Shown piece by piece: positions 2,648-51,962 of a DNA stretch of 60,949 nt. This DNA comes from Blautia sp. (GTDB lineage Bacteria; Bacillota; Clostridia; Lachnospirales; Lachnospiraceae), in NCBI GenBank assembly GCA_017475035.1, contig JAFVGK010000123.1, positions 1 through 60,949 on the forward strand, in the 5' to 3' direction. The notes beneath the pieces were generated by a model. It saw only the letters and a list, made by a program, of their open reading frames with translations, ran no database searches and was not told where the DNA came from. Numbering within the stretch: the first letter of the stretch is position 1; each line of letters opens with the position of its first letter. The position numbers were made by a program, and so were the translations under genes.

Positions 2648-5446
2648 TCAGGTGCAGAACCCGAGAACAATGCCCAAGGAATCTTTTGTTGAAGTGCTTC
2701 CCTTCGAGCCATTGTTACGGACGCTCTCCATATAGGTCGGGGAGCCATAGCAGGACCTGAGCCAGTAACTTAAGCTGGTGCCATACAGGTTTTCCCTTGC
2801 CGCGTATGTCCAGTTGACGGTGTTTCCAAAGCAGGCCTCAGCATGCAAAGGGATCCACAGCTTGTCTTCACTGGTCTGGGTAACATTGCCATTGGTTGCC
2901 AGGTGGACAGAACTTTTCTTGTTCACGGTCTTTATGATGTCCTTCAGGCTGAATTTAGGCAGTACCGTGGACTGGATATAACTTCTCAGGTCAGACGCCG
3001 GCCAACCTCCAACAGAACTGCCGCTTGCGTTCATGTTATGGTTCCCGATACTGCTCGTCAGGAGCCATGTCAGTTTGGCATTGCCGGTCCCGTCAGTAAG
3101 CTCATCCTGATCCATGGCAATAATCTGGGCCAGGTATGTGTTTCCGTTATAAGTGACTTTCTTCGTGTCACCGACCCGATACTTCTCTGCATAGCTTCCG
3201 TCCTCTTCAGCAGCAAGAATTTCTTCCCAAGAGTCAGTAATGTCCTCAGTGCCGTTAAATGGATAATCTTCCATCGAGCAGATACGGTAATATTTCCATT
3301 TCTCATCGGTTTGATAGGCATTCACAAGTCCTGCCGGCACGTAAACGGAACCTTTGCGGAACTGGATCAGTGTCCCGTTGAATGCATTTGGGTTTTCCAG
3401 CGTCGCAACACTGCTGCTTCTGATGAAAAGGGTAGACATTTTTGTGCAGGTCCTGAAAGCATTTGCTTTTATGGTTACAGGCTTGTCCGTCTTCAAATCC
3501 ACGCTCACTAAGGCAGTGTCCCCGTCAAAAGCATTCGCGCCGATGTTTGTGGCAATGGTTTCTACCTCCGTCATGGACTTCATCTGGTAAAGCCCATAGT
3601 CGGCAATTTCTTCATTTGTGTCATTGATATACTCAGTCAAGGCACGGTTCGCATACAAAATGACAGGAGAAGTCATGTCAAAAAACTTCGCATAATAAGT
3701 GGTATCTCCCCCGATCGGCCCAACATCCGGATTCCATCCATTGAATCTGTACTTTGTAGCATCCCCTGTTCCGGCATATACAGGTTCACTCCCCGTATAC
3801 TTTGGGGTTGTACCATATTCTACGCCCGTGACAACCTGGAGCGTGCCGCCCCCGTCCTCCGCTTTCCTGGCGAATGTAGCGGTGTATTTTGCAGCCTCAG
3901 CAGTATAAGCGGCATAAACTGTCCTGTTCGCTTCTACGTTTTTCGTTGCGTTTGCATCAGCAGTCAAAGCATTTTTATTCCTGTTCCATCCTGCAAACGT
4001 ATAAACAACGGATACAGTCGCTGCCCTTGTAGGCCTGCCTTCATAGGCACCGTCGCCTCCATCACGGATTGTTTCAGTATAAAGGAGGCTGCTGCCGTCA
4101 TAAGTATAATATTCCAGTTTGCTGGTAAGATGTTCATAGGTTACAGTAATGTCAGGATACCGCTCCTGGATTGAAGCGATCTGCGCCCCTGTCGCGTCTA
4201 CCACCCTGAAAGTTCCTACAACCTGCGCTTTATCCAGGTTTCCTCCGTTTTCATCAATGCCACGCATGGTGTCCAACAGGCTAAGGATGAGGTCTGCTTC
4301 CTCAAGGGAGCCGAGTTCCTTTTCAAACCCAATGATACGGACCCTGGAGCCTGCCGGAATTCTTGAAACGATATCCAGTGGGTCAATCACTGCCCCATTA
4401 TTCTCCAGGCGGAGGGTAGAAATATTGTCATATCCATCTATGGTAAAATCCGTGATCCCTTTCTGGTTCCGGATCGTCAGATTTGCAAGTGTACCAGGCA
4501 GGTGAAGTGTTTTCAGGATACCGCCGTTAGGCAAGGAAATGCCGGTGATGGATGTTCCTTCAAAATAAACATGCTCAAGGCTGGTACAATGGGAGACATC
4601 TACCGGCTGTGTAAGAGCAGGACAATTCCTTACATCGAGGAACCTCAGCAGCGCATTATTCCCCAGGGTCAGCTCGGTCAGATTACCGTTGGAGTATTCT
4701 TCACTTGCATCCCCCAGCTTGATGCTCTGAATCTTTGTCGCGTTGGAGAAATTCGCACGGCCAACCTTCAGCGGAGCAAGGTCTCCTATGCTCTGAAGTT
4801 GGGAGGCAGAGTATACCGCGATTTCAGTATCGTTTACCGAATCCAACGGACAGGGAAGGGTATACTCTTTTCCTCTTTCTGCCCTTGTCTGGACAAGGTA
4901 AGAACCATATTTAATGCTAGCGTAGATATCAGCGTAAGGTGTTACGGTAATGTCACCCTTTGCATATCCCCTCAGCTCAACAAAATCGTTCAGGCTATCA
5001 CCCGCATTGTACTTCGAATCCAGGTACTTAAACCGGTTGTACAGCCACCACTTTCTCTGGGACTCCTTACTTCCCTGCAGCATCGAGAGGTACGTGGCGT
5101 TTCCCTTCTCAACCAGCGGAGCCAGATACTTAAACCAGGCATCCTCATTAAACACAGCTTCCGGCCACTTTCCCTGGTGGGATTCAAACATCTCTTCTGC
5201 TTTATCGTAGGATAAGGCGCCTGTTGACCTCAGCTGCTTATACATCGACTTAATCTCGTCATAAAACGCCTGACGAAGATTGACCCACATCACGCTCTTC
5301 TGGCTGTTAAAGATATCGGCACCAGAGGGTAAGTGGTCAATGTCTTCCAGGTTATAGGAAAAGACCAAAGCACCTTCGTTGTTAATCCCAATTGCGGTGT
5401 CCGCATCATAGAACAACCAGACGACTTTCTTTCTCATATCAGCCAT
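2648..5446 (-). CDS. CotH-like fibre protein, C-terminal half, with LRR, InlB-type repeats and DUF6273
   Basis: 932 residues beginning MADMRKKVVWLFYDADTAIG. That segment (LFYDADTAIGINNEGALVFS) normally lies inside CotH-kinase-like phage fibre proteins, not at an N terminus. The N-terminal half of the same domain is the C terminus of the upstream gene, which ends with the matching MVDSRAKNAFPSFMGS. In order: CotH-like C half (1-170), leucine-rich-like region (about 215-380), two InlB/Flg_new-type repeats (about 480-610, FAGWNRNKNALTADAN and YRFNGWNPDVGPIGGDTTYY), a BspA-like stretch, and DUF6273 (about 755-932). A strong GGAGG precedes the ATG at 5446. Likely a receptor-binding or adhesive tail component. 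Confidence 0.78.
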   Translation of the reverse strand: MADMRKKVVWLFYDADTAIGINNEGALVFSYNLEDIDHLPSGADIFNSQKSVMWVNLRQAFYDEIKSMYKQLRSTGALSYDKAEEMFESHQGKWPEAVFNEDAWFKYLAPLVEKGNATYLSMLQGSKESQRKWWLYNRFKYLDSKYNAGDSLNDFVELRGYAKGDITVTPYADIYASIKYGSYLVQTRAERGKEYTLPCPLDSVNDTEIAVYSASQLQSIGDLAPLKVGRANFSNATKIQSIKLGDASEEYSNGNLTELTLGNNALLRFLDVRNCPALTQPVDVSHCTSLEHVYFEGTSITGISLPNGGILKTLHLPGTLANLTIRNQKGITDFTIDGYDNISTLRLENNGAVIDPLDIVSRIPAGSRVRIIGFEKELGSLEEADLILSLLDTMRGIDENGGNLDKAQVVGTFRVVDATGAQIASIQERYPDITVTYEHLTSKLEYYTYDGSSLLYTETIRDGGDGAYEGRPTRAATVSVVYTFAGWNRNKNALTADANATKNVEANRTVYAAYTAEAAKYTATFARKAEDGGGTLQVVTGVEYGTTPKYTGSEPVYAGTGDATKYRFNGWNPDVGPIGGDTTYYAKFFDMTSPVILYANRALTEYINDTNEEIADYGLYQMKSMTEVETIATNIGANAFDGDTALVSVDLKTDKPVTIKANAFRTCTKMSTLFIRSSSVATLENPNAFNGTLIQFRKGSVYVPAGLVNAYQTDEKWKYYRICSMEDYPFNGTEDITDSWEEILAAEEDGSYAEKYRVGDTKKVTYNGNTYLAQIIAMDQDELTDGTGNAKLTWLLTSSIGNHNMNASGSSVGGWPASDLRSYIQSTVLPKFSLKDIIKTVNKKSSVHLATNGNVTQTSEDKLWIPLHAEACFGNTVNWTYAARENLYGTSLSYWLRSCYGSPTYMESVRNNGSKGSTSTKDSLGIVLGFCT

Positions 5447-11147: not shown

Positions 11148-11307
11148 TCTCAAATTTAAAAATACATTATTATCTGTTCGTTGATAGCCTTGAAAACCGC
11201 TGTACATCGAGGTTCTTCTATTTTATAAATGCCGATTATAATACTTGATTATATTGCATTTTTGTAATATCATTGAGATATTGTAAAAATATATTTTGAG
11301 GTATTAT

Positions 11308-13536
11308 ATGGGACATTTATATAAAGAACTTAACGAAATTCCAGTTCCTGATTTTGCAAAACCAGATGGGTATAGGGTATATAGCTGGGTAGACATCGGG
11401 GGCGGTGAACGAAAAAAAATCTACATCGGAGAATATGCAAGGAAAGAAGCTGATCCTCCAACATTCTATCCATCCGAAAACTATCGCCTTTTCTTTCCGC
11501 TTGAATGGCAAAAACACTATGGTTCTGCCATGCTCCCAAAGTATCATATTTCAATTGGCAATTATTTGCTTTGTCTGGGCATAGGCCATTCCACAAAGCT
11601 GTATCAATCCCTACATTCTTCATTTGGTCCTCTATATGGAAATTTGCTAATTGATTATGCAATGTATTCTATTAAAGAAAGGTCAAATGTCGCTTATTTG
11701 TTCAAACCTGCAATGGCAAATTCGTTTCTGTTTACTTCTGAAAGAAAGGATGATGATTGGATATCCAATGTGTTCAATAATGAGATCACTATGGATATGA
11801 TACATAAATTCAAAGAAGCCTGGATCCTTCAATGTAAGAAACTGGGCATTACCGAAGTATGGTTAACTGTAGACGGTTCCAACAGTAATTACGAATCACA
11901 AGAAAGCAAACTATCACAAAAAGGCAAAGCAAAAAGTAAGAAGAATGTGGAAATCGTAAGTTATATTTGGGCTGTCAGTACCCCTTTTGGAATTCCAGTT
12001 ACATTTGCTATTAATGAGGGTGGATGTGCCGACTGTAAGGCATTTGATGAAATTCGCGTTACACTGGCGGCATATGGTATCTCTGTCAAAGGGATCATCC
12101 TTGATCGAGGATTTCTTACACATGATGTGATTAACAATATATCAAAGTCCGGTTACGACTATATCGTAAAGTTGAAAGAGGATACACATGCACAGAAGAA
12201 AATGGTCAGTGATTATGGTGACTTGATCTACTGGAACATGGAATACATTTCTGGTGAGGGAGGAAGGTTTGGCATTGTCAGTGATGACAAACGCTATATT
12301 TTTCAATCCCATACTGATGCAGCATATATTGGACTTTTCTTTGATGGAATCAATGGCTCCGAACGTAAAACTGCGCTTGCAAACAAAGTATTTCAGGAAA
12401 TATTGTCTGTTGAACAACAAATGGAACATGGGGTAAAGCCCATTGTTAGCAAGACAATGCAACGTTATATTGAAATAGTGAAAGTTCATCCAAATGATTC
12501 ACCGGAAAAACCTTTGGATACTCAATCTAAGGATGGTATACTGCCAGAGAACATGGTGCCTGATTCTGAAGCATTAGCATTCTCTTCTGATTCAGATGAA
12601 TTCATCACAACTAACAAAGAAGAGATCAGGGAAAAGCCTCAGTACAAGTGGGCGATATATGCTGAACATGCCAGGAAAGACATTTGGGTAAAGGGGTTTG
12701 ATAGCTTAGCCAGTTCTTTGAAAATGAGTCCGCGAGAAATGGACAGGGTATACCATTCCCGTGATATTTCAGAGAAGCAATATATGATAAGCAAGTCAAT
12801 GTTGGGAAATGATGTTTTTCGGTCTCACTCGGACCAGGGTGTTCAAACAAGAACTACTGTCGCATTCATCGCGACGATTCTTCGCTGCTATTATATGAGG
12901 TACTGTCAGAATGAATCGCTGAAGTTATCACGGTTTATTGAAGAAGTTGATGATAAGTTATTTTTATTGCTGTCATCTAATAGAACCTATATGCTCGTTA
13001 ATAAATTGACCGAGAAACAGATTTCCGTATTCAATTCGGCAGGTATCAAAACTGAGGATTTCAATACCATTACGGGCGAAATTAACTTAAGGATTCGTCA
13101 GAAAGGAAAGGGAGTATCTCAGTTCCACGATATGCCAAAGGACATTAGGGAAAAATACAAATTATATCCAAACAGTGAAGAGCTAACTGAACCAGTGATG
13201 TTGCCGGGTGAAGATGAACCCATTCCAAAGAACGAGAATGAAAAAGTACTCGAATCGTCCAGGGGCAAAGCAGGAAGACCACCAGGAAGAAAAAACAACA
13301 AAACCCTGGCACGTGAAGCTTCGGAAAGATCTGCAGGAACTATTCCAAAGCCAAGAAGTAAAAAAGGAAGACCACCAGGAAGTAAAAATAAGAAAACACT
13401 GGCCAGAGAAGCTGCACAAGCAGCCCAAGGAATACAAAAGCCGGAACCAAGAGGAAAAGGCAGACCAATAGGAAGCAAAGATTCTAAACCAAGGAAAAGA
13501 AGAACCAAGGCTGAACTTGATGCAGCTATTGGGTAA
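11308..13536 (+). CDS. IS4-superfamily DDE transposase with C-terminal AT-hook-like repeats
   Basis: 742 residues, RNase H-fold transposase. Candidate catalytic residues: Asp in WLTVDGSNSNYESQ, Asp in KGIILDRGFLTHDV, and Glu in YHSRDISEKQYMISK. That last stretch fits the Y-(2)-R-(3)-E-(6)-K signature of IS4-type enzymes exactly. The protein is longer than most IS4/IS1634 transposases. Its last ~100 residues hold three GRP repeats (KAGRPPGRKN, KKGRPPGSKN, GKGRPIGSKD) resembling AT-hooks, spaced about 35 residues apart in a lysine-rich tail. The start at 11308 (MGHLYKELNEIPV) has GAGG six bases upstream. Confidence 0.9.
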   Translation: MGHLYKELNEIPVPDFAKPDGYRVYSWVDIGGGERKKIYIGEYARKEADPPTFYPSENYRLFFPLEWQKHYGSAMLPKYHISIGNYLLCLGIGHSTKLYQSLHSSFGPLYGNLLIDYAMYSIKERSNVAYLFKPAMANSFLFTSERKDDDWISNVFNNEITMDMIHKFKEAWILQCKKLGITEVWLTVDGSNSNYESQESKLSQKGKAKSKKNVEIVSYIWAVSTPFGIPVTFAINEGGCADCKAFDEIRVTLAAYGISVKGIILDRGFLTHDVINNISKSGYDYIVKLKEDTHAQKKMVSDYGDLIYWNMEYISGEGGRFGIVSDDKRYIFQSHTDAAYIGLFFDGINGSERKTALANKVFQEILSVEQQMEHGVKPIVSKTMQRYIEIVKVHPNDSPEKPLDTQSKDGILPENMVPDSEALAFSSDSDEFITTNKEEIREKPQYKWAIYAEHARKDIWVKGFDSLASSLKMSPREMDRVYHSRDISEKQYMISKSMLGNDVFRSHSDQGVQTRTTVAFIATILRCYYMRYCQNESLKLSRFIEEVDDKLFLLLSSNRTYMLVNKLTEKQISVFNSAGIKTEDFNTITGEINLRIRQKGKGVSQFHDMPKDIREKYKLYPNSEELTEPVMLPGEDEPIPKNENEKVLESSRGKAGRPPGRKNNKTLAREASERSAGTIPKPRSKKGRPPGSKNKKTLAREAAQAAQGIQKPEPRGKGRPIGSKDSKPRKRRTKAELDAAIG

Positions 13537-47587: not shown

Positions 47588-49558
47588 TCAACTATCTTTA
47601 CAGTAAAAATATGCCTGGTAACCATCAGCCTTTAAACATAAGCCCGGAGCCCAGGGAGGGACTGTAGACATAAGACTACAAATCTCCTCAACGGTTGTGT
47701 TTGGATGAGCCTCCACAATCACCTCGTCATGGACATGGGCGCAGATGCGGTAGCTGCTCAACTGCTTCATTGCAAAGCAAAGGATGTCGCGGCTCAAGCC
47801 CTGGACCAGGTTTTCAACGAATTTCGGACCGTAAGATTCTATCCGCGACCAGTGTTTCGTCATATCCAGGCCCATGTAGGTGACGGACTCACCTCCGAAC
47901 CTGTTCTCTCCGATCTGAGGCTTTACGTAGCAGAGTTGGCGACCAGATGGCAGCGTGATGTAAAGCATCCCGCCACGATACTCAAAAGCCAGGCCATGGG
48001 TCTTAGTTGTTGTTCGCTGCTTAATCGCGTCCTTCACTGCCCTATCCACATCCCACCATAAAGAGACAATGTTCGGGTTTGCTTCGCGCCAGGCCGCAAC
48101 CAGTGGCTGGAGTTCTTCTTCCTTCATTCCTGCTTCAAGAGCTCCCATGGCAATCAGGGCACCGACGGATCCGCCATATCCACAGTTGTGGACGAGTTTT
48201 CCCGATACGGTAAAACGATGATGTCTTCCGGCATTTCGTATGTCATAAAGTCGAGCCGTGCGCTTATCAGCCGCCAGTTTTTCCGCTTTTCCTTGACTGC
48301 CTTCTCGGCATCTGCAATAATCTCGTCCCTGGTCAGACCTTGGGATAGTTTCAGCCTTACAACCGTTTCCGCATAAGGCCAATAATCCTGATCGAAGCGG
48401 CTGAGTACAGTGATCCGTCGATTGGCACAGTTTTCTTTCCGCGTTACAAATCTCAAATTTCCTGGTGCATAATTTCCGTTGTCGTCTATCCGATCCAATT
48501 CCAGATTTTTGTTCAACGGTCCAAACTCCCGAATCAAATAAAGTCCGGCTTCCGTCACACTCGGAAAGTCGAACTTTATTCCTCTTGCCCCATAATTTTT
48601 GTACCCAGGATCTTTTGGATTCTCGCATCTCCGTCTTGCTGCTGTAAGCCGTCTGTCCAGCCACAGCGGAATCTTTCTCGGCTGAGAACAGTTTTGACAC
48701 CCTTTGGACTTTCCGCTGATGAGGTTGTTCCTGTTCTGCCATTGAATTGCTCCGCAGCCCTGGCATTGTGTTAAGACATAACAATGGTTCTGCTTTTGAT
48801 TCCATCTTTTTTCCGGGCTTATAATCTTCACCCAGCCATATTGCTCCCCTACCATCTCCGGTTTGTATGAGATGTGCACCGCAGGAGGCGGCGAGTCCAA
48901 AGTAAACGGGCTCCTGTTGCCCCTCAATGAAGACGAGATGGTCTGGTGTGGCTGTAAGCCCTTCATATGTGATGACCTCTCGTTCTCCTCTGTACACGAC
49001 ACCACCATGATTAACCCACCCCTCTCCGTCCCACACCTTCATTGCTGTGGTTACATTTTGTATAGGGACAAGGCCGATGTCTGTCAAAACAAGTTCTCCT
49101 TCTGCGATACAGCTAAGCGTCGCTTGCTTGCCTTTCTGACGGAGGTCACCATTGATGCCGTGTTTTTCCACAGGCACATGGAACATACGACTGGCAGTCT
49201 CACAGTAGATATCCCCACCCTGCTCAAACACGTCCAGAACCCACTTTTCTCCCGCAATCCACGCAAGAACACGGGCTTCGATAGCCGAGAAGTCAGCTAC
49301 GATGAATTTGTACCCCGGGGCAGGTATGAAAGCCGTCCGTACACACTGTGCAAGAACTTCTGGAACGGAGTTATAGAGAGCATCCAGTGCTTCATAGTCG
49401 CCTTGGGAGACGAGACCCCTCGCCTCCTCCAAATCAGGAAGGGAATTCCTGTAAAGGTTTTGAAGTTGTACGATCCTTCCGCTGTTCGAAACAATGCGGT
49501 CATTGGCAAGGAACCGGTTCCTCGATCCCGCATTGATAATGTCATATGTTTTCATCAT
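47588..49558 (-). CDS. Family A DNA polymerase, C-terminal part: C half of a split intein, extein, complete intein 2, extein
   Basis: 656 residues. Residues 1-25 are a C-intein (TYDIINAGSRNRFLANDRIV-SN), then extein from SGRIVQLQNLYRN. The polymerase A motif is FIVADFSAIEARVLAW (catalytic Asp). Motif B begins RQKGKQATLS and is interrupted by a 309-residue intein (150-458), resuming CGYGGSVGALIA. Motif C is AHVHDEVIVEA. Without the N-terminal gene at 50670-51962, and without splicing, no active polymerase can form. ATG at 49558 has GAGGAAAA. Replicates phage DNA. Confidence 0.9.
   Translation of the reverse strand: MMKTYDIINAGSRNRFLANDRIVSNSGRIVQLQNLYRNSLPDLEEARGLVSQGDYEALDALYNSVPEVLAQCVRTAFIPAPGYKFIVADFSAIEARVLAWIAGEKWVLDVFEQGGDIYCETASRMFHVPVEKHGINGDLRQKGKQATLSCIAEGELVLTDIGLVPIQNVTTAMKVWDGEGWVNHGGVVYRGEREVITYEGLTATPDHLVFIEGQQEPVYFGLAASCGAHLIQTGDGRGAIWLGEDYKPGKKMESKAEPLLCLNTMPGLRSNSMAEQEQPHQRKVQRVSKLFSAEKDSAVAGQTAYSSKTEMRESKRSWVQKLWGKRNKVRLSECDGSRTLFDSGVWTVEQKSGIGSDRRQRKLCTRKFEICNAERKLCQSTDHCTQPLRSGLLALCGNGCKAETIPRSDQGRDYCRCREGSQGKAEKLAADKRTARLYDIRNAGRHHRFTVSGKLVHNCGYGGSVGALIAMGALEAGMKEEELQPLVAAWREANPNIVSLWWDVDRAVKDAIKQRTTTKTHGLAFEYRGGMLYITLPSGRQLCYVKPQIGENRFGGESVTYMGLDMTKHWSRIESYGPKFVENLVQGLSRDILCFAMKQLSSYRICAHVHDEVIVEAHPNTTVEEICSLMSTVPPWAPGLCLKADGYQAYFYCKDS
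48154..48855 (-). CDS. Homing-endonuclease-like protein nested in another frame inside intein 2
   Basis: From about 48855 this frame encodes MVGEQYGWVKIISPEKRWNQ. A zinc-ribbon module follows (TQCQGCGAIQ ... GCQNCSQP), then the phage homing-endonuclease-type core RRCENPKDPGYKNYGARGIK and LELDRIDDNGNYAPGNLRFV with TRKENCANRR. This is coding-like and recognisable, while the intein frame over the same bases is not. The frames differ by +1. The stop at 48154 lies 31 bases past the intein end, in the polymerase extein. The start is uncertain; no clean ribosome site. Confidence 0.72.
   Translation of the reverse strand: MVGEQYGWVKIISPEKRWNQKQNHCYVLTQCQGCGAIQWQNRNNLISGKSKGCQNCSQPRKIPLWLDRRLTAARRRCENPKDPGYKNYGARGIKFDFPSVTEAGLYLIREFGPLNKNLELDRIDDNGNYAPGNLRFVTRKENCANRRITVLSRFDQDYWPYAETVVRLKLSQGLTRDEIIADAEKAVKEKRKNWRLISARLDFMTYEMPEDIIVLPYRENSSTTVDMADPSVP
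48185..49111 (-). other. Intein 2 in DNA polymerase motif B (309 residues)
   Basis: Begins Cys1 in CIAEGELVLTDIGLVPIQNV. Block B is LTATPDHLVF. It ends with block F/G RLYDIRNAGRHHRFTVSGKL-VHN followed by Cys+1 of the extein. All splicing residues (Cys1, TxxH, His-Asn, Cys+1) are present. The middle ~190 residues look like a shadow reading of the overlapping endonuclease gene and carry no homing-endonuclease motifs. Confidence 0.88.
49484..49558 (-). other. Split intein 1, C-terminal fragment (25 residues)
   Basis: MMKTYDIINAGSRNRFLAND-RIVSN, matching intein block F/G, joined directly to Ser+1 of the extein. The penultimate residue is Ser, where most inteins have His. The size is typical of natural split-intein C fragments (25-40 residues). 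Confidence 0.85.
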
Positions 49559-49808
49559 TTTTCCTCTAATACGAAATTCTACTAACCTACAGTCCTGTCA
49601 ATTTATAAATTCATAAATATGTGATGAGCGCGTGGAGCGAGGCATATGGCAATATTAAATTTCTAGCCTCTTCATTTAGGTTCTAGCATGTTTTGGGAAT
49701 TAAATTGTCTTTAGGCAAAGTATCATTATCTCTTCTATTATGATTTGATCCTCATTGTGTTATGCAAAATAAACAACTTCATAATTAATAATATGTGCAG
49801 GTTCACGA
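49559..49808. other. AT-rich noncoding flank of the DUF3800 insert
   Basis: About 250 bases, markedly AT-rich against the surrounding genes. No gene or terminal repeats found. The only short plus-strand frame is a 20-codon one at about 49623, with no clear ribosome site. Confidence 0.6.
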
Positions 49809-49837
49809 TTGACGACAATTTCTGATCATGTTATATT
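49809..49837 (+). promoter_or_regulatory. Strong promoter of the DUF3800 RNA/gene unit
   Basis: -35 TTGACG (49809-49814), exactly 17 bp, -10 TATATT (49832-49837). Directed rightward, against the polymerase genes. Confidence 0.8.
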
Positions 49838-49843
49838 ATTTAT

Positions 49844-49948
49844 GCAGACATATATAAATGTGCTGTATACCTGTGTAAGTGAATTAACGTTTAAGCGATA
49901 TGTAATATCGTCACCCACAGGGCCGCCGTGAGGCGGTTTTTTTATTTT
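49844..49948 (+). ncRNA. Structured leader RNA upstream of DUF3800 (DUF3800-type RNA motif candidate)
   Basis: About 100 nt from the predicted start to a terminator. Outer stem CCTGTG (49870-49875)/CACAGG (49916-49921) encloses a 7-bp hairpin GCGATAT-GTA-ATATCGT. Then the intrinsic terminator CCGCC-GTGA-GGCGG plus TTTTTTT (49923-49943). Eleven classes of conserved structured RNAs upstream of DUF3800 genes are known from comparative work; I cannot tell which, if any, this one belongs to. Confidence 0.65.
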
Positions 49949-49960
49949 GGGGAGATAATA

Positions 49961-50656
49961 ATGGATATCTACGTCTATTCTGATGAATCTGGTGTTTTTG
50001 ATAAATTCCATAACCGCTATTTTGTATTCGGAGGGATTATATTCCTGGACAAAGGCGCTAAAGAAATCTGTTCACGTAAATACTCAAAAGCGGAAAATGA
50101 GATACGGAAATCTGCCGGATATATGCAAAGCACTGAACTGAAAGCCAATTTCGTGACAAATAAAGAAAAAGGCAAACTATTCCGTTCGCTAAATCAATAT
50201 ATAAAGTTTGCTGTCATCATAAGTCAAAATAGTATTTATGATCGTATATTTGAAAGTGCCAAGGACAAACAAAGATATCTAGATTTTGCCTTTAAAATAG
50301 CTTTAAAAAGAACTTTCGTCTCACTAATAAACGAAGGTAAAATTCTCCCAACGGAAGTTAATAATGTACGTTGCTGGATAGATGAACACACAACTGCCAC
50401 TAACGGAAAGTATGAGTTAAGAGAAGCATTGGAACAAGAATTCAAGCTCGGAACATATAACTATGACTACAGTCGTTATTATGATCCAATATTTCCTAAT
50501 ATTGATGGAGTGGAATTACATTTCTGTGATTCTAAGTCCGCTATTCTTGTTAGATGCGCGGATATTATAGCCAATAGGATATATCACTTGATAGCTAGTA
50601 ATGATATAAACAAACTTCAGAATATACATAACTTATACTTTAGCTATTTACCCTAA
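49961..50656 (+). CDS. DUF3800 protein lodged between split-intein halves
   Basis: 231 residues. The N-terminal IYVYSDESGVFDKFHNRYFV and FGGIIFLD fit the DUF3800 start (xxDESG, hydrophobic strand). RCWIDEHTTATNG lies in the middle, and the C-terminal signature is FCDSKSAILVRCADIIANRI. The fold is predicted RNase H-like with conserved Asp/Glu residues; the activity is unknown. Codon use is far more AT-rich than neighbours, a sign of transfer. The ribosome site GGGGAG lies between the RNA's terminator and ATG 49961, so expression needs read-through. Confidence 0.85.
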   Translation: MDIYVYSDESGVFDKFHNRYFVFGGIIFLDKGAKEICSRKYSKAENEIRKSAGYMQSTELKANFVTNKEKGKLFRSLNQYIKFAVIISQNSIYDRIFESAKDKQRYLDFAFKIALKRTFVSLINEGKILPTEVNNVRCWIDEHTTATNGKYELREALEQEFKLGTYNYDYSRYYDPIFPNIDGVELHFCDSKSAILVRCADIIANRIYHLIASNDINKLQNIHNLYFSYLP

Positions 50657-50669
50657 ACAGTTGCTTTTC

Positions 50670-51962
50670 CTACCCTTGAACACCTTTGGAAGCAATAGTT
50701 TCCATATTCCCCCTCCAAAGCAAAAGTTGTTTTTCTTTTGCAAGGATAAGGGGGACTTTTTCATCCGGAGAAATAAAAACCATATGTTCCTCTGTGGCCG
50801 TCACCCCATCCCAAGTGATGACTTCTTTATCCCCGCTATAGACAACACCCTCGTGATGAACCCATTCCTCTCCATCAAAGACAAGATCATCAGCGAGAAC
50901 TTCTTCAATAGGTTTCTCCAGTACGCTTCCTTCTACCGTCTTTACAAGAATCTTTGTCCCCTCTGCAAGGCAGAAACGCCCCGAGCGATTCGCGCCATAG
51001 AACTGGAACATCCCTCGGACACGTCCGTCGGAGCAAGCAGCTGTTTCCATTGCCTGGTATTTCTTCAACGAAGACTTTGCGATCTGCTGCCGGAGGTTAA
51101 GAACTGCCCGCGTTTTAGGATCATCCGTAATTTTCAGCAGTTCTTTTATAGACGCCTTATCCAAGGATGAAGCCGCCACTCCCCTCCTGTTCAGCCATTC
51201 CAGAAGCTGCTGGACTGACCTGGGATTCTCCACACCTGTTATTTCCTGGATCTGTTTTCCGATGTTTTCCTGAGAAAGAGAATCAAGCTTGATGGCGTTC
51301 TCCACCATCTTCTGATCTACCAATATCCCCCTGTCATTGATCTCCTGATCCAGCCAATACTCCTCCCAGACCTGGTCGGGGACAGGATGAGATGAGAGCT
51401 TCTTTTGTATCTGCTGCTCGACCTCGACATCTCGGACATTGTATTTTTTGAAGAGATCCCACTTATCAGGGGCGTCAGAGGGGAGATTACGGACTCGTCC
51501 ATTATTCGTTTTCGTTGCTTTACAAGGGATACAAAAATACCGGATCAGATCCTTCCCCTCGGACATCTTCTGCTTATCAAGCTTCAGGGCGGCTCCTACA
51601 CTTGCGAGGGAAAGGGGAAATCCCAAATATGCGCTCCAAATCATGGAACAGCGCCAACCCCGAGGGGATAAATAAGTCCCCCTCGGGATAAGTCCCTTAT
51701 CCCAGAGGAATCGGCTCAAACAGATTCTTTCAAAAGAGGCGTTAAATGCCCATTTGGTGATGGATGGATCCAGTAAAGCATCAATTATTTCCTGAGGAAT
51801 CTCTTCTCCCTGCGCCAGGTCATAGACAGTGACAGGTCCATTATCAATAGCCACAGCAAAAAGTAGAATCTCAAAAGACGGATCCTCAGCGTAACGGTAC
51901 ACACCAGTCTTGGCGAGGTCGGCCTCGCTGTAGGTTTCCAAGTCAATACTGAGTGTCTTCAC
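50670..51962 (-). CDS. Family A DNA polymerase, N-terminal part: 3'-5' exonuclease, palm start, N half of a split intein
   Basis: 430 residues. Exonuclease motifs: LSIDLETYSEADLAKTG (Exo I), ITKWAFNASFERICLSRF (Exo II) and YNVRDVEVEQQIQ (Exo III), of the DEDD type. The thumb/palm segment leads to MFQFYGANRSGRF and then the intein N fragment. Trans-splicing with the fragment at 49484-49558 would give GANRSGRF-SGRIVQLQN, a normal family A motif. Start taken as GTG at 51962 after AAGGAG, overlapping the DUF932 stop (GTGA). Confidence 0.9.
   Translation of the reverse strand: MKTLSIDLETYSEADLAKTGVYRYAEDPSFEILLFAVAIDNGPVTVYDLAQGEEIPQEIIDALLDPSITKWAFNASFERICLSRFLWDKGLIPRGTYLSPRGWRCSMIWSAYLGFPLSLASVGAALKLDKQKMSEGKDLIRYFCIPCKATKTNNGRVRNLPSDAPDKWDLFKKYNVRDVEVEQQIQKKLSSHPVPDQVWEEYWLDQEINDRGILVDQKMVENAIKLDSLSQENIGKQIQEITGVENPRSVQQLLEWLNRRGVAASSLDKASIKELLKITDDPKTRAVLNLRQQIAKSSLKKYQAMETAACSDGRVRGMFQFYGANRSGRFCLAEGTKILVKTVEGSVLEKPIEEVLADDLVFDGEEWVHHEGVVYSGDKEVITWDGVTATEEHMVFISPDEKVPLILAKEKQLLLWRGNMETIASKGVQG
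50673..50972 (-). other. Split intein 1, N-terminal fragment (100 residues)
   Basis: Starts Cys1 in CLAEGTKILVKTVEGSVLEK, after the extein GANRSGRF. Block B is VTATEEHMVF. Ends ETIASKGVQG and a stop codon 13 bases from the end of the DUF3800 gene. It is similar to intein 2 over its whole length (CxAEG, DGExWVxHxGVVYxG, EVIT, TATxxHxVF). Confidence 0.88.

Follow-up and report, generated by a model that had tools for sequence, protein, structure and literature searches.

A structured RNA and a DUF3800 gene lie between the halves of a split-intein family A DNA polymerase

The window, as we call the whole stretch of 60,949 nucleotides that was analysed (Blautia sp., contig JAFVGK010000123.1), encodes a family A DNA polymerase on its minus strand as two genes. 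The gap between them carries an RNA and a DUF3800 gene on the opposite strand. The features of the locus are arranged as follows.

47588..48184, minus strand: polymerase C-terminal extein, 198 aa and stop (PHROG 10285, E 9e-112)
48154..49008, minus strand: HNH endonuclease ORF, 284 aa (PHROG 374, E 2.4e-26), overprinting the second intein in a different frame
48185..49111, minus strand: second, contiguous intein, 309 aa, between KQATLS and CGYGG
49112..49483, minus strand: polymerase middle extein, 124 aa (PF00476; 46-73% identity to six split relatives)
49484..49558, minus strand: C-intein, 25 aa, ending in VSN, then Ser+1
49559..49808, no strand: 250-bp stretch from the C-half start to the promoter-like site, 32% GC, no GIY-YIG trace
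49809..49837, plus strand: promoter-like site TTGACG-17-TATATT, 10/12 match, before the RNA
49837..49947, plus strand: DUF3800-I RNA (RF02969, 97.8 bits, cut-off 44.2, E 7.6e-16)
49961..50656, plus strand: DUF3800 gene, 231 aa (PF12686, 49.1 bits, cut-off 21; PHROG 30113, E 5.9e-80)
50670..50972, minus strand: N-intein, 100 aa and stop, with Cys1 and block-B TxxH (PHROG 26005 across residues 345-396)
50973..51962, minus strand: polymerase N-half extein (PHROG 17 DNA polymerase, E 1.6e-51), C-terminal end GANRSGRF

The N-half probably starts with the GTG at 51962, the reading frame being open up to 52010, and its extein is without any Pfam match. The N-intein runs from 50972 to 50673 on the minus strand and is followed by a stop codon (50672..50670), so that the junction reads GANRSGRF^CLAEGTK...GVQG-stop. 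The C-half begins at 49558 (minus strand) with the 25-residue C-intein MMKTYDIINAGSRNRFLANDRIVSN, then Ser+1 and SGRIVQLQN, and the RBS-like sequence GAGGAAAA is located 5' of the ATGATG at its start. The two halves belong to separate genes, and homologues without an intein are contiguous at the site in question. An earlier note on this DNA had described the two polymerase genes with their 100-residue N-intein and 25-residue C-intein, and its description is correct to the base. Class 1 inteins have a nucleophile at position 1, a TxxH motif in block B and a C-terminal Asn before Ser, Thr or Cys. The split intein of the window follows these rules with Cys1, TEEH and SN^S, and Cys1, Thr60, His63, the last Asn and Ser+1 are all invariant in an alignment of four split copies. 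Against PDB sequences the N-intein gives one weak match, 2jmz, the intein MJ0781 (E 0.036). We take DFSAIEAR in the middle extein to be motif A-like and HVHDE in the C-terminal extein to be motif C-like.

The site of the second intein is empty in 73 of the 82 polymerase relatives, the other nine not being testable, and this intein is aligned across all 309 residues in seven other loci. A viral scan for it came back empty although other searches gave copies, so that such scans are lower bounds. The overprinted HNH ORF has no Pfam match at 0.001. It is 60-70% identical, at the same offset, in seven loci, and a recoding test is a further basis for it. A hidden out-of-frame HNH element has been described for ShiLan (PMC11855218). 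In the accessible part of that source, both cases have an HNH endonuclease hidden out of frame within an insertion whose host frame is open; the host frame of ShiLan is without intein motifs, whereas that of the window encodes a recognisable intein.

The locus might belong to a decaying phage with a dead polymerase, the halves of which no longer splice. A DDE transposase ORF at 11296-13536, also on the opposite strand and among tail genes, is in line with such decay, but we consider it unlikely. Both polymerase halves and the second intein are free of stops and frameshifts, the stretch coding for both the second intein and the HNH ORF is open in both frames, the catalytic residues are retained and the RBS-like sequence precedes the C-half.

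The N-intein matches nine distinct contigs, six of which carry this split intein (L091, L092, L093, L099 and L102, viral; L103, a Ruminococcus MAG). L094, L095 and L104 were rejected as the same split intein, as their inteins are at other polymerase sites. Over the best segment, the N-intein is 66-69% identical to L091, L092, L093, L099 and L103 and 59% identical to L102; over 24 residues, the C-intein is 67-88% identical to the six split relatives. A profile of the N-intein matched, besides the genome of the window, 2 of 64 whole genomes of the genus, 5 of 391 in a class sample and 4 of 398 in a phylum sample, genome G293 being counted in both of the latter. Among the loci compared, those of L106-L108, L183 and L185-L188 resemble inteins within long, open polymerase frames, of the kind of the second intein or related to it; L109, L111, L184 and L189 were left unassigned in the comparison of whole-genome loci. 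The evidence for movement of the intein is mixed. Pairwise identity (rounded values) is higher for the N-intein than for the N-extein in 20 of 21 pairs but higher than for the middle extein in only 14 of 21; the respective means for N-intein, N-extein and middle extein are 59.3, 48.2 and 57.9%.

In five of the six split relatives the gap holds a same-strand GIY-YIG-type homing endonuclease gene that overlaps both halves, and in the sixth it holds a 115-aa ORF of no known kind. The five gap genes match PHROG homing endonucleases (E 5.3e-5 for L102 to 2e-17 for L099), and two of the six have a Pfam GIY-YIG match (L092 and L099). The overlap of the endonuclease gene amounts to 28-59 nt at the N-half stop in the five relatives and, at the most upstream C-half start, to 4 nt in four of them and 14 nt in L092. 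DUF3800 is absent from the gaps of all six. The nearest polymerase, that of L091 (62% in the N-extein), also has no endonuclease, so the loss of the endonuclease may be unrelated to DUF3800.

These relatives bear on how the split arose. The DUF3800 gene sits exactly between the halves and its base composition differs from the surroundings, as would be expected had its insertion divided a once contiguous intein, and the earlier note had likewise supposed that the DUF3800/RNA unit broke the polymerase. We regard this as very improbable, and that supposition is not supported: each of the six relatives shares the split site and has no DUF3800 there, a GIY-YIG-type endonuclease gene occupies the gap in five, and their half-intein ends are homologous. 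No contiguous intein, which the earlier note had named as evidence that would count against it, was found at this site among the loci examined. The polymerase without an insert, for which it had proposed to search, is common: the N-half extein runs into the middle extein in 78 of the 82 polymerase relatives, the other four are not testable and there is no exception.

Since six other contigs are split at the identical residue, assembly error is excluded by sequence comparison as the cause of the split; the DUF3800 insert gains no such backing. No other viral contig contained an exact match to 24 bases across one DUF3800 junction, the region was matched among 64 genomes of the genus only by the window's own genome, and no near-identical annotated phage was matched. 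Because a single contig shows the DUF3800 junction, the insert, unlike the split, may be chimeric.

The GC content of the gap is 32-34%, compared with 49% for the whole window. This agrees with the AT-rich insert with promoter, RNA and DUF3800 gene on the other strand of the earlier note, except that its promoter is better called a promoter-like site: such sites occur at chance level by count (four in the region versus 5.9 expected from shuffles) and are not rarer than chance. Hexamers of variable quality are, by eye, at the same spot upstream of 17 of the 17 DUF3800-I RNAs compared. The RF02969 match was also recovered in a whole-window scan. The RNA has a folding z of -4.79, shows compensatory change in 13 of 29 predicted pairs (17 sequences) and has an intrinsic-terminator-like hairpin (49919-49940) as its 3' end. 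The DUF3800 gene is convergent with the polymerase N-half, the stop codons being 13 bp apart. An AlphaFold2 model of its protein has a pLDDT of 91.7 and a pTM of 0.88, and there is no PDB sequence match up to E 1.

DUF3800 is described as a family of nucleases linked to ncRNAs (PMC10910872; PMC12669027), the RNase H fold being assigned in PMC10910872. Asp8, Glu59, Asp108, Asp141, Glu160 and Asp201 are invariant in 37 sequences. Together with the position in the homing-endonuclease slot and the recurrence of the cassette at unrelated phage positions, these points would fit a functional replacement of the endonuclease, in which an RNase H-like nuclease dependent on the RNA would cut alleles without the intein and then be copied in by repair. 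We give this little credence. No clear guide-like segment was seen in 33 distinct RNAs (partly core-selected, within Rfam borders only, with L125, L126 and L128 excluded), no convincing target-site duplication or terminal inverted repeats flank the insert, with short and imperfect repeats only, and the cassette is in none of the six other split-intein gaps. Elsewhere it occupies ordinary cargo places. It is equally improbable that the DUF3800 protein and its RNA are a ribonucleoprotein homing nuclease succeeding GIY-YIG, an RNA-containing homing system inside an intein.

The cassette is found elsewhere in 15 of the 17 sources compared, in phages, satellites and plasmids. In L127 it sits between a terminase-like gene and a portal gene, a junction that is gene-free in two of the five relatives compared and holds other genes in three. 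Its recurrence at unrelated phage positions means that the cassette travels, and to this extent the earlier note's suggestion of a mobile element stands; as no convincing target-site duplication, recombinase (none was seen in the cassette) or clear guide accompanies it, a self-mobile unit does not follow, and the cassette fits cargo better.

Such cargo may be a type III toxin-antitoxin-like or superinfection-exclusion system, with the RNA controlling or neutralising the DUF3800 protein, a reading that we find possible but short of even odds. It is a version of the passenger explanation and not opposed to it. Type III toxin-antitoxin systems comprise a tandem-repeat RNA, a terminator and a nuclease gene, and tandem RNA repeats are a hallmark of ToxIN. 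The order of promoter-like site, structured RNA, terminator and gene corresponds to this, but the cassette is without tandem RNA repeats. In 29 of the 48 viral loci with DUF3800, the RNA core precedes the gene by 70-90 nt; the order varies, however, with RNA but no recognisable gene in L115, the gene preceding the RNA in L125 and L128 and a convergent arrangement in L126. The cargo places in phages are also consistent with such a function, as are weak PADLOC matches of two relatives (L170 to PDC-M04A, E 6.4e-5; L174 to IetA, E 0.029), but the window protein has no PADLOC match. A transposon screen in a Legionella isolate counts a DUF3800 gene among the essential accessory genes (PMC7811196).

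Taking these observations together, we consider it probable that the locus is a fractured polymerase gene from which the endonuclease is gone, that its slot is occupied by the DUF3800-I cassette as a passenger and that the halves are trans-spliced. A split class 1-type intein at SGR[F/Y/W]^S divides the polymerase into two genes, and the two proteins would associate and trans-splice to give one enzyme of about 650 aa, with the second intein splicing in cis. In favour of this reading, pN/pS is 0.24-0.47 against three relatives, with synonymous sites close to saturation. That active polymerase requires trans-splicing, as the earlier note held, is likewise probable. The GIY-YIG-type endonuclease in the gap of most split relatives found presumably spread the intein. 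Here it would have been lost, and the cassette of promoter-like site, RNA, terminator and gene gained on the opposite strand. No endonuclease remnant was seen in the gap of the window (best E 0.17, limit set at 10), and we therefore only infer that loss preceded gain. The slot would tolerate the cassette, because the polymerase is rejoined as protein, as long as a ribosome-binding site of its own allows the C-half to be expressed. A passenger rendered harmless by the split intein is the most likely reading of the sequences; such a passenger would serve in defence or exclusion or as a toxin-antitoxin pair, and it probably does not drive homing.

Fractured genes, reportedly described by Dassa et al. 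in 2009, combine a split intein with a homing endonuclease gene that stands free. The window shares with them intein halves in two genes, a gene in the gap and an expected trans-splicing, and differs in its family A polymerase and in having an opposite-strand DUF3800 gene and RNA and no endonuclease. A homing endonuclease between the halves is present in five of the six split relatives and not in the window. The window locus would work like a fractured gene yet without an endonuclease, and the earlier note's view of a fractured-gene layout in which the DUF3800/RNA unit takes the position of the homing endonuclease is borne out. Going by the accessible part of PMC7891396, AceL NrdHF, a split intein with an intervening putative GIY-YIG endonuclease, has the same layout as five of our six relatives, but it is a class 3 intein of 98 + 48 aa in a ribonucleotide reductase, compared with an intein of 100 + 25 aa in the window, and that part mentions neither an RNA nor DUF3800. 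DUF3800-I RNA units elsewhere have the RNA/gene order and spacing usual for them, as does the window, but lie, by eye, beside or between whole phage genes and not inside a split-intein polymerase. A literature search that covered part of the journals found no publication on DUF3800 within a split intein.

The occupant of a split-intein gap can change, from an endonuclease to an ORF of no known kind to an antisense RNA/DUF3800 cassette, and split inteins may therefore serve as a safe harbour for unrelated cargo within an essential replication gene. The seven related naturally split polymerase inteins form a set for trans-splicing work, and the locus is a place for asking whether the DUF3800-I cassette protects, kills or homes.

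On re-reading of the window sequence, the coordinates that an earlier note had proposed for the split polymerase prove to be exact. The N-half and the C-half of this family A phage polymerase are encoded on the minus strand, while the gap between them is occupied by a DUF3800-I cassette on the plus strand, consisting of an RNA (Rfam RF02969) and a protein-coding gene (PF12686).

Features of the split polymerase locus
Minus strand, directly before the N-intein: extein of the polymerase N-half, terminus ...GANRSGRF
50972..50673, minus strand: N-intein of 100 amino acids, followed by a stop codon
Between the polymerase halves, plus strand: promoter-like site
Between the polymerase halves, plus strand: DUF3800-I RNA of 111 nt (Rfam match of 97.8 bits, cut-off 44.2)
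Between the polymerase halves, plus strand: terminator-like hairpin
Between the polymerase halves, plus strand: DUF3800 gene of 231 amino acids
Opening at 49558, minus strand: C-half with a 25-amino-acid C-intein ending in VSN, then Ser+1 and SGRIVQLQN

The GC content of the interval between the halves is 32–34%, compared with 49% for the window. The stop codons of the DUF3800 gene and the N-half are separated by 13 bp, 278 bp lie between the start of the C-half and the RNA, and the C-half is preceded by an RBS-like sequence of its own. Elsewhere in the window (11296–13536, plus strand), an ORF for a DDE transposase of 746 amino acids is found among minus-strand tail-like genes, and five further positions of the window's genome give weaker matches to it.

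Searches with the N-half resulted in at least 82 loci outside the window that match the N-extein (L021 and L027 being one place). Among the matches listed, the N-extein is continuous with the middle extein in 78 of the 82, with no residue gained or lost, and the remaining four are cut or partial at this site. The site of the second intein, which is contiguous and located further along the same polymerase, is empty in 73 of the 82 loci among the matches listed, all those that can be assessed there. Because intein-free polymerases run straight across both sites, the intein borders are exact.

The split site is shared with relatives that carry an endonuclease in the gap. The N-intein searches picked up nine distinct contigs. 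In six of them, namely five from viruses (L091, L092, L093, L099 and L102) and one Ruminococcus MAG (L103), the intein is the same and occupies the same position. All six are split. L094, L095 and L104 were rejected as carriers, their inteins being located at other sites. In five of the six split relatives a same-strand gap gene matches PHROG homing endonucleases; only those of L092 (short, 79 amino acids) and L099 reach Pfam GIY-YIG, and the PHROG score for L102 is modest (E = 5.3e-5). At its start, the endonuclease gene overlaps the last 28–59 nt of the N-half, and at its end it overlaps the furthest-upstream start of the C-half by 4 nt in four relatives and by 14 nt in L092. As both halves are overlapped, the cassette of these five relatives looks translationally coupled. 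In L091, which contains the polymerase closest to that of the window (62% in the N-extein), the gap has, in the position of the endonuclease, a 115-amino-acid ORF at 2523–2870 with no clear family match (best PHROG match E = 0.072). Among the seven split polymerases, a DUF3800 gene in the gap and an opposite-strand occupant are each found in the window only. No trace of an endonuclease was seen in the window gap, which has lost the overlap coupling typical of the endonuclease-bearing relatives. Beside its split intein, L091 also has a further intein-like insertion (about 3705–4067) near residue 127 of the C-terminal extein.

Horizontal movement of the split intein is suggested, although not proven, by sequence comparison of the seven split polymerases. 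In 20 of 21 pairs, similarity is higher for the N-intein than for the N-extein (59.3 versus 48.2% on average), and the C-intein has a mean identity of 80.0%. For the middle extein the mean is 57.9%, and the N-intein is more similar in just 14 of 21 pairs as counted from rounded values; in the pair L102–L103 the N-intein is less alike than either extein. Relative to three relatives, pN/pS is 0.24–0.33 for the N-intein, 0.38–0.47 for the N-extein and 0.26–0.40 for the C-intein together with the middle extein; since synonymous sites are near saturation, these values indicate constraint and nothing further.

The DUF3800-I RNA is present in four of 98 relatives and in three of 398 genomes of a phylum sample, both counts including the window's own genome. 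It was found in 15 of 17 scanned sources (eleven from a pattern search, four known RNA-bearing genome regions and two DUF3800 contigs), L112 and L121 being without it. In 48 viral DUF3800 loci, which share some contigs with the pattern-search set, the RNA core lies 70–90 nt before the gene in 29 and after it in two, and was not seen by pattern in 17. In L125 and L128 the gene comes first, followed by the RNA; in L126 the two are convergent; and in L115 (3638–3743) the RNA has no recognisable adjoining DUF3800 gene. These arrangements favour an RNA with an activity of its own over a plain leader. Compensatory changes occur in 13 of 29 predicted pairs in a 17-sequence alignment, and the unpaired core is near-constant across 33 distinct RNAs. 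As many of these 33 were picked by their core sequence and the divergent RNAs of L125, L126 and L128 were excluded, the constant core speaks only weakly against a guide segment.

By eye, the unit is located in cargo-like places, for example next to genes that resemble those of lysins or integrases; in L127 it is flanked by a terminase-like gene and the portal gene. The terminase–portal junction was inspected in five of 1853 portal-relative records: two are gene-free (for L192 by taking the large, unnamed gene beside the small terminase as the large terminase) and three contain other genes. Satellite phages and plasmids likewise encode relatives of the DUF3800 protein. The AlphaFold2 model of this protein is confident (pLDDT of 91.7), and Asp8, Asp141 and Asp201 are among the residues that are invariant in 37 sequences. 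In two papers (PMC10910872; PMC12669027) the family is described as RNase H fold nucleases present in CRISPR loci, one of the two stating a link to ncRNA. The order of parts in the cassette is similar to that of type III toxin–antitoxin loci, but the repeats of the latter are absent. PADLOC returned no match for the window protein and weak matches for two relatives only.

The second intein overlaps an endonuclease ORF in another frame of the same DNA.

Features of the second intein
49111..48185, minus strand: second intein of 309 amino acids
49008..48154, minus strand: HNH endonuclease ORF, in another frame of the second-intein DNA

When one frame was randomly recoded with synonymous codons and stops were counted in the other, the intein frame stayed open in none of 5000 recodings that preserve the HNH protein (mean of 18.1 stops) and the HNH frame in eight of 5000 that preserve the intein (mean of 5.3 stops). 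In seven of 14 compared loci (L106, L108, L132, L133, L183, L185 and L187), the alignment covers the full length of the 309-residue intein, the HNH ORF begins at an identical 103-nt offset, and identities to the window are 60–70% in the HNH frame and 43–53% in the intein frame; the other seven (L095, L104, L107, L131, L134, L186 and L188) match only in part. The seven loci that align in full include Streptococcus and Gardnerella phages. The polymerase gene of Sodalis phage SO-1 likewise has an annotated HNH gene in a different frame, and that of Salmonella phage f18SE an HNH match. Of the precedents seen, the ShiLan element (PMC11855218) comes closest; it has no intein motifs. In L132 (Streptococcus phage PhiSdyV1524), a gene annotated as toxin TenpN (3977–4519) comes just after the intein-bearing polymerase. 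The C-terminal part of the L099 GIY-YIG endonuclease (4255–5124) resembles residues 183–255 of the overprinted HNH protein (37%), and the two perhaps share a DNA-binding module. Speculatively, overprinting of an endonuclease could be an intermediate stage on the way to a split intein: a stop would arise in the intein frame, and the endonuclease plus a new start would then give two halves.

A GIY-YIG endonuclease has already been described in a fractured gene (PMC7891396), and no fractured gene with an opposite-strand ncRNA/DUF3800 cassette in this slot was found in the literature searched on DUF3800 and split inteins. The split site and the endonuclease of the relatives are directly visible in the sequences, and the splicing, the succession of changes and the cassette's role are inferred from them. 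Most likely, two polypeptides are made from the polymerase halves, the intein halves fold together and splice the polymerase in trans, and the second intein splices in cis. The gap is probably a place where extra DNA costs the phage little; in the window lineage it would now hold cargo, and a gap endonuclease could no longer drive homing there.
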